64,000 nt of DNA, from the NCBI RefSeq assembly GCF_019059575.1, contig NW_024882887.1, positions 110,695 to 174,694 on the forward strand, read 5' to 3'. The notes under the pieces are model-generated. The model was given only the letters and a program-made list of their open reading frames with translations, had not been told where the DNA came from and did not search any database. Position numbers and translations under genes: made by a program. Position 1 is the stretch's first letter. Each line of letters opens with the position of its first letter. Source of the stretch: Amphibalanus amphitrite (lineage: Eukaryota; Arthropoda; Thecostraca; Balanomorpha; Balanidae). Below, in pieces: positions 7,101 to 10,100 of the stretch.

Positions 7101-10100
7101 GTTGACACAGGACGAATGAGGTGACACAGGACAAGGGGCTATTCAAGACGGTGGGGTCATACAGGACGGTATGGGGGGGGGGGGGCAGCAGAGGACGGTC
7201 AGGTGATACGGGACGGTGGGTGATACAGGACAGTGGGGGTGACATAGGACAGTGCAGTGGGGTGGTGCAGGACAGGAGGGGCTATTCAAGACGGTGGGGT
7301 GACAGAAGACGGTGGGATGATGCAGGGCCAGTGATTTGACGAGCTTACTCGGAGGGTAATCCAAATAATTAACGTACATAAAAAGTTACATTTAAAGTAA
7401 AAACGCAATCTTCGAAAACATTACAGGTATGAAATAATTTGAAAAGCTTCGAAAACTATGTGCAGACTACAGAACACGAATTAACCCGCGCCCGGCTGGG
7501 GGTCCTGGATTTCCACGCCCTGCTGGGGGGGGGGGGGTGTTTGAACACCCCCCCCCTTGTAACTCGGCTCCTGGGCCACGTAGCGATACGCGGAAGGCGG
7601 CGTTCGAAAGAGCGTCAAAAATAATGACGAAATCACTTCGGTCAATTTTTTGGTCAGGTCAAAGGTCAGGTCACCAGAGGTCATTGAAGGCAAAATTTCG
7701 CCGATTTCCAGGTCGAATGTCGAAATTTTCCAAGAAGCCAACGCATAACTCGGGAACCAATAGAGCTACAGCGCCGCGGAAAAGCGCATTCGATAGCCCT
7801 ATTAACGCCTTTTCTGAATAATTCTCTCAGATTTGACCTAACGTCAACGGTTTTGCCTGCAGGGGGCAAAAACTGCAAAAATAGCCGATTTTTTCGGAAA
7901 CAGTTTTTCTGCAATAACTTTTGACCCAAGCCCCGTACGAGCTTACTTTTACCGGCATCGTGTTCCTCTCGTCAAGACGCATCGAATGAACTATACTTTG
8001 ACCTTGAAAGGTCAACTTGAAAATTTGACCTCAGGTCAAGGTCATGACCTGACCGGAAAGGGTCATGTTGCATATCAGTCGATCCGTATCGTCGATCTGA
8101 ACACATCTAAGGCGATTTCATCGCTCTAGCATGCCTCTATCGAAAGTTATTTGCGAAAAACTGTTAGATACCATTCGTGACCTAAGATGACCTCAGGGCA
8201 TAAACAATGGTCACGGACACCATTTTCACGTTCAGTGTGTCTAAACCACTTGTAATTCGGTGTTTGGGAGTGTTTATAATGTCTTTCGTCCAAAAGAGGC
8301 GCATTTCAATTTTCTCCCATTGACTTATAATGGGGAGGTCGCAAAATTGACCTGACCTTAGGTCATCGATATCAAAATTCTGAGATATACATTTTGTACA
8401 TGCTATTGCTCTTAGCAATCGCTGAAAGTTTCAGAGCGATCGGTCACTCGGTGTAGCTATGACAGACATTGAAACTTTTTATGAGGTGAGGTCACTTCAA
8501 GTGACCTGGTGACCTGACCTTGAATGACCTTGGTCTGAAATTTTCACAGCATGTGTAGAATTGATCCGTTTTTTGAGATATTCGCGAAAAACCACAAGGG
8601 GGGTGTTCAAACACCCCCCACCCCCAGCAGGGCGCGGGTTAATAAGCCATCAAACGTGACTTTCACCTCTATTTCCTGTAACGTGCATTATCGTCCAGCA
8701 CAGCCTGGATAAAGTTAAACAGTTAACACGTCTTAACCCGCGCCCCGTTGGGCTCTGCCGAGTGCCGAGCAACGCGCCCTGTTGGGGGGGGGGCATTTGC
8801 CCCCCTAAGATCTCGAGAACCACGCAACCTAGCGACAAGCGGCAAACGGTGTTGGATAGCCCTATCAGGGAACTACCTTGTGACCCAATTTTATTGACCT
8901 AGGTCAAACCGATGACGTCACAGGTCAGGTCAAAGGTCCAATTTTCACCCTTTACAGGCATTTCAAGAAATGCGTTGTAAAATCGAGTAAAATGCATTTC
9001 ATTGAAAATCATCGATGGGGAAATGTTCTTCAAACACATATTTTGCTATTTGAGGTCACTGATACCAGGTCAGGTCACAGGGGTCAGGTCACTGGGGGGT
9101 CACAATATGAAAGTGTCGTGTGATACATGTTTTATGGTCCATTTTACATGACAAATGCGATTATATGGGTCAGGCAGCCTTTGGAGCCAGCTTAGGTCAC
9201 GTTTTGGTCAAGGTCAGCTCAAGATCAGGTCAAGGTCAGGTCAAATTAGGTCAAATTTCAAAATTAATATTTTTGCATAAAATTGGTATCGAATCGATGC
9301 AGCTCGTCACGGGGAGTTCAATGGTGGTCTTTGTTTTGCCGTACGTGGTCTAGAATCGCTAAAAATTGAGTTAAAAAATTTGACGTCATCATTTTTGAAC
9401 AGTTTTTTTCGCTATAACTTGGCCAAAAACGAGATATCGATCTGAAATTTGGTATGTATATAGAAGAGCGCAGGGACTATCACAAATATTCCGGTTTTTT
9501 TCGAAATTCGGAAAAATTTTGGATTTATTTTTAGTTTTCTAAAAAAATCAATTTTTTGAATTTTTGGGGTCATAAACCCAAAATTTTGAAAATCTGAGAT
9601 AGCAGTTTTGTAGCGCCGCTTTTTGTCTACTAGACCATATAAAGAACTTTGAAATTGCTTGATAACTGTAGATTTGGTGAGCGTTTCAAGATTGCATGTT
9701 TTTTGCTCATTTTTGCTCGAACATGACCTCAGTTTGACCTCAATAACTCCTGACCTAAGGTGACCTAAGATTTGAAATTTGGTGTGAAGGTGTCAAACTG
9801 ATGCCCGGGAAGGTATTGAAAATTTGGCGGCGCTGCGCGCCGCCATTTTCTTGCTATTCAGGAAAAACCAAAGGGGGGGTCCAAAATGGCCCCCCCAACG
9901 GGGCGAGGGTTAACAATTCACATATCGGTGTTTTACTTCTTTAGATACCCTTAGATTGATGTTTTCTTTTAAAAAGACGCTTCGATTGGTATGTTCCTTT
10001 TTCTCTTCCATGTCTTACTTTTGTACAGCAGCCCATGCACCCTGTAGATGACCGTCATTTCATCGCACCGGCCCAGCTGTTACACACGTACCCTGCACGT

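Follow-up and report, generated by a model that had tools for sequence, protein, structure and literature searches.

Clusters of AGGTCA with a Period of about 170 bp in TTAA Elements of Amphibalanus amphitrite

AGGTCA-Rich Elements in the Window

The window is the whole stretch of 64,000 nucleotides analyzed here (contig NW_024882887.1, positions 110,695 to 174,694). Judging from an immunoglobulin-domain exon, it plausibly contains a guidance receptor gene. Several transposon-like elements lie in the same stretch, and they are rich in AGGTCA, the nuclear-receptor half-site. E2 (8733–9913, forward strand) is a non-coding element of 1181 bp bounded by TTAA, with 18 AGGTCA and with full-length matches elsewhere in the genome, of which copies were read. 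Its left terminal repeat (TTAACCCGCGCCCCGTTGGG) occupies 8733–8752 on the forward strand. The right terminal repeat with a G/C palindrome (GGGGGGGCCATTTTGGACCCCCCC) occupies 9873–9913 on the reverse strand, where folding was no better than that of most shuffles (z = −1.5).

The sites of E2 fall into four clusters. Three are on the forward strand, at 8895–8932 (centre about 181 bp from the left end, one of its four sites being in the opposite orientation), 9053–9091 (about 340 bp) and 9194–9253 (about 490 bp). The fourth, at 9724–9766 on the reverse strand, is centred about 168 bp from the right end and points into the element. The third and fourth clusters are separated by a gap of 522 bp, equal to three periods of the ladder described below, with two rungs missing. 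The original prediction had described the third cluster, and all six of its AGGTCA words (9194, 9211, 9227, 9233, 9238 and 9248) were found exactly where they had been placed, as were the DR4 (9238/9248), the DR0 (9227/9233) and the extended half-sites TCAAGGTCA at 9208 and 9230.

E1 (7481–8642, forward strand) belongs to a second family and is 1162 bp long, with 21 AGGTCA in six clusters (7656–7683, 7834–7839, 7999–8050, 8178–8193, 8348–8365 and 8489–8530). Two relatives of E1 lie in reverse orientation: E3 (51495–52914, reverse strand; 1420 bp, 20 AGGTCA), identified by alignment, and E4 (62564–63747, reverse strand; 1184 bp, 21 AGGTCA). The four elements are loaded about equally, as had been proposed, with 80 AGGTCA in 4,947 bp. 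They had also been taken for a single TTAA-bounded family. E1, E3 and E4 are indeed related (identity 69–92% over the aligned parts, orientation mixed), but E2 had no match to them at the comparison threshold. The TTAA boundary holds for E2 but not for E4, which is flanked on both sides by a target duplication of ATAA; E3 starts with CCT at one end. A remote common ancestry of the families is indicated by 109 of 812 between-family unit pairs that lie above the 99% null.

Further TTAA elements are present on the forward strand. E5 (25919–26852) has six AGGTCA, with clusters only at 177–205 and 350–372 bp from its left end. The left parts of two others lie at 42317–42617 (TTAACCCGCGCGGGGCTGGGG, first AGGTCA 173 bp from the end) and at 18939–19335 (TTAACCCTGGCCGG, AGGTCA at 162, 182, 350, 370 and 392 bp). 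The left part of a relative of E2 lies on the same strand at 60651–60850 (TTAACCCGGCAGGCGG, AGGTCA at 163, 190 and 195 bp).

In the whole window, 149 AGGTCA were counted on both strands, compared with a mean of 29.9 in dinucleotide shuffles, and none of 100 shuffles attained 149. When each of the four elements was shuffled 300 times, the mean was 0.4–0.7 per element and the maximum was 4. AGGTCA is the commonest hexamer of E1 to E4.

Abundance of AGGTCA in the Genome

The genome sample consisted of 20 stretches of 10 kb taken from larger contigs at a single position (200001–210000), which is not a random draw. AGGTCA occurred 422 times in it, compared with about 92 expected from a first-order Markov model, and ranked third of 2,016 non-palindromic hexamers in these 200 kb, behind AAAAAA and CCCCCC. 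Extrapolation from the 20 × 10 kb gives about 1.7 million words in the genome (808 Mb, 2,644 contigs), against about 0.37 million by chance, in agreement with the earlier idea that a mobile family spreads AGGTCA. At least three AGGTCA neighbours within 300 bp were found for 302 of the 422 sites. The sample held 24 clusters of five or more AGGTCA, which extrapolates to about 97,000 clusters per genome. The observation is confirmed as real, and it is larger than originally noted.

The clusters are linked to transposon ends. Among the 32 clusters of the sample and the window, 24 had a TTAA-class end within 700 bp (11.3% of random positions did), 21 had one within 250 bp (4.1%), and eight had such ends within 700 bp on both sides (1.1%). 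The eight clusters without a nearby end include an apparent minisatellite at 10960–11357 of the window. Of 37 G-run ends in the sample and the window, 10 had fewer than four AGGTCA in 700 bp.

Classification of the Elements

E2 has at least 41 full-length matches in the genome including the window copy, the others being 94–96% identical, among the 40 that were scored of 5313 first-look candidates. We read 28 of the 41, every one top-scoring, and these copies diverge by about 1% (substitutions relative to the majority sequence). TTAA was found on both sides in 27 of them and TTAT on both sides in one. All 28 copies, which were found by homology, start with CCC at both ends; other ends were searched via TTAACCC or near variants, so that their agreement in CCC is not a test. 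The ends start with TTAACCC, several continue into a G/C palindrome, and the terminal sequences are of the form TTAACCCGCGCC or TTAACCCTCGCC. A single-strand stem was formed at the ends of E1, E2, a relative of E5 (end at 2175), L034 and L035, and was weak in E3 and E4. Folding clearly beat the shuffles in E1 only (z = −2.5), the others having z values from −1.5 to +0.3.

Like miniature inverted-repeat transposable elements (MITEs), these elements are non-coding, have short terminal inverted repeats and reach high copy number; a Pfam scan of one open reading frame each of E1, E2 and E3 gave no match above the cut-off. However, MITEs are usually under about 600 bp, and the eleven elements studied are 905–1420 bp long, so “non-autonomous element” is the safer term. 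Transposons of the Sleeping Beauty (IR/DR) type have a TA target duplication, whereas the target of the E2 copies is TTAA. The terminal repeats of piggyBac start with CC(C/T). The E2 copies share this start and, with the one exception, the 4-bp TTAA target duplication, and from the sequence features of their ends we place the elements among the non-autonomous, probably piggyBac-like (TTAA) transposons.

The genome contains 116 matches to the piggyBac domain (DDE_Tnp_1_7). Among the upstream flanks of 20 of these 116 matches, we found no transposase gene bordered by the ends of our elements. A TTAACCC end was present in six of the 20 flanks, each starting with TTAACCCA, and these six left flanks, in which the end accompanies a transposase gene, contain 0–2 AGGTCA over 837–1089 bp, two of them belonging to a single family. 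AGGTCA was absent from a downstream flank of 1,400 bp, in which no end was seen either. When genuine piggyBac ends were folded, a stem appeared at the same place in three of five (z = −3.3, −2.2 and −0.5) and was absent in two. A terminal-repeat pattern search of viral contigs returned one contig only, with one AGGTCA in 3.3 kb.

Period of the Clusters and Register with the Element Ends

The clusters form a ladder with rungs about 170 bp apart that keeps register with the ends of the elements, a feature absent from the original prediction. Distances between AGGTCA pairs form six peaks, near 165, 330, 505, 670, 835 and 1,045 bp (raw distances), and the fitted period is 173.5 bp (sample 171, window 176.5, bootstrap 169–177). 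The period signal of AGGTCA (25.8) was the strongest of 403 hexamers, the next being 12.9. However, the next-ranked words, the simple repeats GAGAGA and AGAGAG, also peak at 172.5 and 169 bp. The period score alone is therefore no proof, and the claim is carried by the multiple peaks of pair distance. Blanks of roughly 100–160 bp separate the clusters.

We then consider the ends. In 23 ends with unlike terminal sequence (some elements contributing both ends), the first 140 bp were empty and AGGTCA peaked at 160–200, 320–380 and 480–560 bp. A stricter comparison, with 9-mers compared on both strands, used one end each of nine elements that share at most 5% of their 9-mers. The coherence was 0.65, a value reached by 6 of 5,000 randomisations (their mean being 0.25), and none of 94 AGGTCA lay in the first 140 bp. 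The first AGGTCA stood at 154, 164, 164, 165, 179, 181, 182, 261 and 295 bp, so that the arrays mostly begin at 154–182 bp, and they recur near 340 and 500 bp. With 12 ends (at most 10% shared 9-mers) the coherence was 0.65 (1 of 5,000 as high), and with 17 ends (at most 20%) it was 0.67 (0 of 5,000). The choice of representatives matters: over 20 orders, giving nine or ten ends, coherence ranged from 0.40 to 0.71 with 0–4 sites in the first 140 bp, four sites being found there in three of the orders. One right end of E1 has its first AGGTCA at 113 bp.

Gaps between clusters were regular in five of six family groups (p-values 0.00005–0.0022; the sixth, E5, had p = 0.068), the period of 172 bp used in this test being derived from the same data. 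Rungs are missing in places in E2, E3, E5 and F1. AGGTCA numbered 14–21 in ten of the eleven elements and 6 in E5. Six of the eleven are 6.8–7.0 periods of 170 bp long and the others 5.3, 5.5, 5.5, 5.9 and 8.4, which means that length itself is not strictly quantised.

The period could be the relic of an ancient tandem array of head-to-tail units of about 170 bp, of which AGGTCA is the recognisable remainder. This is in keeping with the number of ladder intervals, which differs among families, and with four non-terminal unit pairs above the 99% null where about one is expected (F3 1–2, E1 2–3, E3 5–6 and E1 3–6). However, after AGGTCA was masked, identity at lags of 160–178 lay within the background spread in 10 of the 11 elements; E3 alone peaked, with 0.304 at lag 166 (mean 0.258, sd 0.014). 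Tandem units identical at this lag were rejected on these values. Within elements, only 10 of 104 unit pairs exceeded the 99% null, and six of these were left–right terminal pairs. No recognisable repeat at the period, as in a tandem satellite, was found, and a few weak unit similarities remain. For the most part the units do not resemble one another as copies would, so no tandem repeat is visible behind the period, though the weak similarities would be compatible with an ancient one. Surroundings that decayed while AGGTCA stayed would require constraint, so such an array could explain the origin of the ladder and not its maintenance. As the explanation of the ladder we consider it improbable.

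The nucleosome core is 147 bp. The blank between the end and the first cluster is near this size, and the period is near the nucleosome repeat. AT-dinucleotide periodicity in the blanks was 2.30 at 10 bp (other genomic DNA 1.65, sd 0.21) and 2.22 at 10.5 bp (1.67, sd 0.23), a modest signal that is spread over 9–11 bp and comes from segments that include both ends of some elements. G+C content has a minimum of 0.38–0.40 at 25–45 bp from the cluster centres. Both the AT periodicity and the G+C profile are consistent with nucleosomes lying on the blanks, and do not prove it. A search of the literature on nucleosome-period motifs in transposons and on crustacean TTAA MITEs found no description of such a ladder among the papers listed.

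Spacing and Orientation of the Half-Sites

Spacers were counted as distinct contexts, similar contexts being collapsed. Direct repeats had spacers of −1 (28 contexts), 4 (23), 5 (12), 0 (12), 1 (8) and 14 bp (8), and each of the remaining spacers from 2 to 21 bp occurred in 0–4 contexts (DR2 in 2, DR3 in 4). Outside the overlapping tandems, the commonest spacer was therefore 4 bp, and the 23 DR4 contexts have spacers that are mostly unlike. Spacers of 4 and 5 bp place the sites one helical turn apart, and one of 14 bp about two turns. ER1 was found in 9 and IR1 in 2 distinct contexts.

These counts bear on the possibility that the arrays are kept as nuclear-receptor enhancers of host genes and so rewire hormone responses. 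The hexamer is a receptor half-site, DR4, DR5 and DR1 (23, 12 and 8 contexts) are spacings of the receptor type, with DR4 and DR5 enriched, and a purine is accepted at position 1 (GGGTCA ratio 3.75). However, IR1, the arrangement of the EcR type, is rare. Monomers of the FTZ-F1/ERR/HR3 type prefer A before the half-site, but no fixed A precedes AGGTCA in the sample (119/422). Moreover, enhancer action needs no register with the element ends. Hormone effects on the host are plausible by analogy; as the reason for which the arrays are kept, we judge them rather improbable, and a little more so than the tandem relic.

Orientation suggests another reading. Over 17 ends, 37 of the 47 sites in the first cluster and 43 of the 55 in the second point toward the interior of the element; farther in, the two orientations are balanced (34 of 69 inward). 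AGGTCA might be a subterminal and internal transposase site, as AAACGG is a subterminal transposase binding site in Ac/Ds, and the period might reflect protein geometry or looping with no part for nucleosomes. The inward orientation of the outer two clusters, the closeness of 24 of the 32 clusters to a TTAA-class end and the substitution footprint on the hexamer (see below) agree with this. On the other hand, the rungs span the whole element and not its ends alone. The upstream flanks of 20 of the 116 piggyBac matches revealed no transposase gene with these ends, and the six with TTAACCC ends lack the array. We regard a transposase-binding ladder of this kind as unlikely, yet it is the strongest of the alternatives.

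Constraint on the Hexamer

Simple tandem expansion, part of what had been named as fatal to the regulatory idea, does not account for the sites. Inside clusters, A came before 301 of 376 non-tandem GGTCA, and outside them before 175 of 606, a difference that is inflated because clusters were chosen by AGGTCA. Slippage of the GGTCA pentamer as the main source was rejected on this result, and by eye the DR4 spacers resemble GGTC at chance level. AGGTCA is a true hexamer, more than a tandem of GGTCA.

Retention of the word was estimated in 131 pairs of aligned copies (36, 40 and 40 in three identity classes), the motif being masked before alignment so that it could not guide it; the pairs are not independent and the control words were hand-picked. 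AGGTCA was still present at the corresponding position in 302 of 574 instances (53%) at 62–72% identity (36 pairs), 628 of 949 (66%) at 72–80% (40 pairs) and 710 of 949 (75%) at 80–88% (40 pairs). In the most distant class, 16 of 21 distinct control words were retained in 0–17%, the exceptions being CCCCCC (63%), GAGATA (44%), AAATTT (41%), GTCAAA (34%) and AGTTAT (31%), so AGGTCA stood above 20 of the 21. However, ACGTCA (85%) and AGTTAT (84%) surpassed it at 72–80% identity, and TCGATA (81%), GTCAAA (76%) and ACGTCA (76%) matched or exceeded it at 80–88%. Homopolymers aside, no word tested survives long divergence better than AGGTCA, yet it is not the sole word that is kept.

Over 1,211 distinct aligned contexts, substitution was 3–7% at the six bases of AGGTCA, compared with 9–21% at the 12 bases on either side; these are unmasked BLAST alignments, which the word may anchor. 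Positions 3 and 1 were the most tolerant, as in the receptor consensus RGKTCA. Transitions made up 127 of 193 single changes in the hexamer, and G to T at position 3 occurred only 10 times.

The young E2 burst gives a different picture. Counted as separate changes outside homopolymers, its AGGTCA sites had 12 singletons (18 expected) and no shared variants (3.6 expected), and 227 and 118 of 1181 shifted positions did as well. The raw rates (12/3360 and 321/25263) looked strong, but protection within the burst is not significant when counted in this way. There is no sign in young copies of host selection on the sites after insertion, which also speaks against the arrays being kept as host enhancers. 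With no significant protection of the young sites, the constraint appears to be a property of the transposing lineages and not of the resident copies.

Sites that are nearly neutral within one burst are also what neutral hitch-hiking would give, in which a chance property of a founder was multiplied by bursts. However, the word, the spacing and the register are all retained in ends with no more than 5% of their 9-mers in common, and at 62–72% identity the retention exceeds that of nearly all control words. We attach very little probability to it.

Proposed Explanation

The reading that we prefer, with a probability of about one half, is that these are non-autonomous piggyBac-like transposons that carry a built-in chromatin ladder, in which the AGGTCA clusters would mark linkers between nucleosome-sized blanks. 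Nucleosomes would cover the blanks, and an AGGTCA-reading protein would bind in the linkers; it might be a nuclear receptor of the host, or else a transposase or an accessory protein that recognises the same word. The bound protein would phase the nucleosomes, leaving the terminal repeats accessible and allowing both ends to pair. Selection would chiefly favour the mobility of the element, and any influence on hormone regulation in the host would be incidental. Because the clusters keep register with the element ends, a role that serves the element is the first to consider; the original prediction, which stressed hormone-response sites, is partly supported. The putative reader may be a host nuclear receptor, which fits the half-site and DR4, or it may be the transposition machinery, which fits the inward orientation. 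The six TTAACCC-ended piggyBac left flanks, with their few AGGTCA, count against the second candidate.

With somewhat less confidence, we suggest that these elements represent a class of transposons that encodes its own nucleosome ladder, with a predicted factor site in every linker, counted from the ends, so that the same chromatin would be rebuilt wherever a copy lands. The internal DNA of non-autonomous transposons is usually regarded as filler. Here it contains a code under constraint, whose period resembles that of nucleosomes and is anchored to the element ends, and which is common to families with little other sequence alike. Whether transposons set up the chromatin of their own copies thereby becomes directly testable. 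If the reading is true, the clusters extrapolated for the genome would be a vast decoy and docking field for host nuclear receptors. Nuclear-receptor binding maps in Amphibalanus amphitrite would need to be read against more than 1 million transposon-borne half-sites (extrapolated).

Comparison with Known Systems

The inner and outer transposase sites of Sleeping Beauty are spaced about 165 bp apart, and a literature search for a 166-bp Sleeping Beauty spacing found no paper. According to the available text of a report on this transposon, each of its repeats, about 220 bp long, has two transposase sites, one inner and one outer (PMC7827188). The likeness is that sites stand at the end and again well inside. 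However, the barnacle elements have up to six AGGTCA clusters across their length instead of two sites per end, and their target is TTAA.

The piggyBac superfamily and its MITEs, such as Pokey and mPok of Daphnia, likewise have the TTAA duplication, ends starting with CCC and non-coding derivatives, as far as the portion available goes (PMC4912750). The stem just inside the end, seen in three of the five genuine piggyBac ends, is a further likeness. Unlike piggyBac, Pokey and mPok as described there, the barnacle elements have an AGGTCA ladder throughout and G-run ends, and no transposase gene with such ends was found.

Work on mPing and mPong suggests that internal DNA, perhaps via nucleosomes, affects MITE mobility. 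In the accessible parts of that paper, it is proposed that internal nucleosomes may draw the two ends of mPing close to each other, and efficient transposition of piggyBac is said to require an internal sequence of more than 1,000 bp (PMC9921582). However, according to the same parts, the promoting regions share no specific sequence, and no period is mentioned. The published work on mPing, piggyBac and Sleeping Beauty, as far as these portions go, supports the setting of the mechanism proposed here.

According to the passages available, Alu repeats have spread DR2 and DR4 elements in many copies, and receptors are recruited in vivo to several of the DR2 sites (PMC1785376). Like the barnacle elements, Alu is a mobile family through which AGGTCA direct repeats have multiplied across the genome, and the receptor ChIP on its DR2 sites is a precedent for hormone rewiring. 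However, the Alu motifs are described at fixed places (near 58 and 66–68), with DR2 arising largely from CpG decay, whereas the barnacle sites number 14–21 in ten of eleven elements and are periodic and constrained.

Two Caenorhabditis elegans MITEs, CERP2 and CELE2, provide germline promoters regulated by HIM-17, as stated in the available part of that study (PMC9757741). These, too, are MITEs that bear motifs of a DNA-binding factor and have spread to many host promoters. Promoter co-option was demonstrated there, whereas the finding in the barnacle elements is a ladder. Together with Alu, and within what these partial sources describe, they are precedents that make effects of the barnacle elements on the host plausible.

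Coding Context and Other Repeats

The window belongs to a genome assembly of 807.55 Mb. Its immunoglobulin-domain exon (4438-5001, minus strand), whose best solved relatives are DSCAM and SYG-2, is probably the guidance receptor named in the original prediction. A ribosomal S10-type exon was located at 32109-32510 (minus strand), and an RS-rich reading frame of 457 aa (38559-39932, plus strand) spans 21- and 33-bp tandem repeats. A long frame, of 1263 aa (53892-58756, minus strand), appears Ser/Thr-rich by eye and contains three stretches of about 30 aa each, of the type SLAEIL..SLxxFLxxGGDVxxLLxEY; the adjoining frame matched the N-terminus of Folded gastrulation with an E-value of 0.0046, under the Pfam cut-off.

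A second repeat is dispersed over 29094-29774, 41829-42116 and 44264-44683, with 89-91% identity between places; CTCGAGAACGGCTGGGCCGATTGTGCTGAAATTTGG exemplifies the phrases it contains.

Features of the AGGTCA Elements

In E2, a TTAA-type non-coding element, and in its relative, the first AGGTCA cluster is adjoined by the CRE-like word TGACGTCA or by half of it, ACGTCA; the places concerned are 25919-26852, 60801-60863 and, in E2, 8912. The retention of ACGTCA was 85% between copies at 72-80% identity.

The target duplication sometimes departs from TTAA, being ATAA in the element E4 (62564-63747) and TTAT in one of the 28 E2 copies (L010), in each case identical at both sides.

Palindromes, unlike one another in sequence, are repeatedly located immediately inward of the TTAACCC ends, both in AGGTCA elements and in three of the five genuine piggyBac ends that were folded: in the window at 8583-8642 (element E1), 9850-9913 (E2) and 2112-2175, and elsewhere in the genome at L034:4674-4740, L049:412-471, L057:812-871 and L061:664-723. 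Among them, folding was clearly above shuffles only for E1, L049 and L057. It is possible that the end palindromes common to AGGTCA elements and piggyBac ends form a shared recognition structure.
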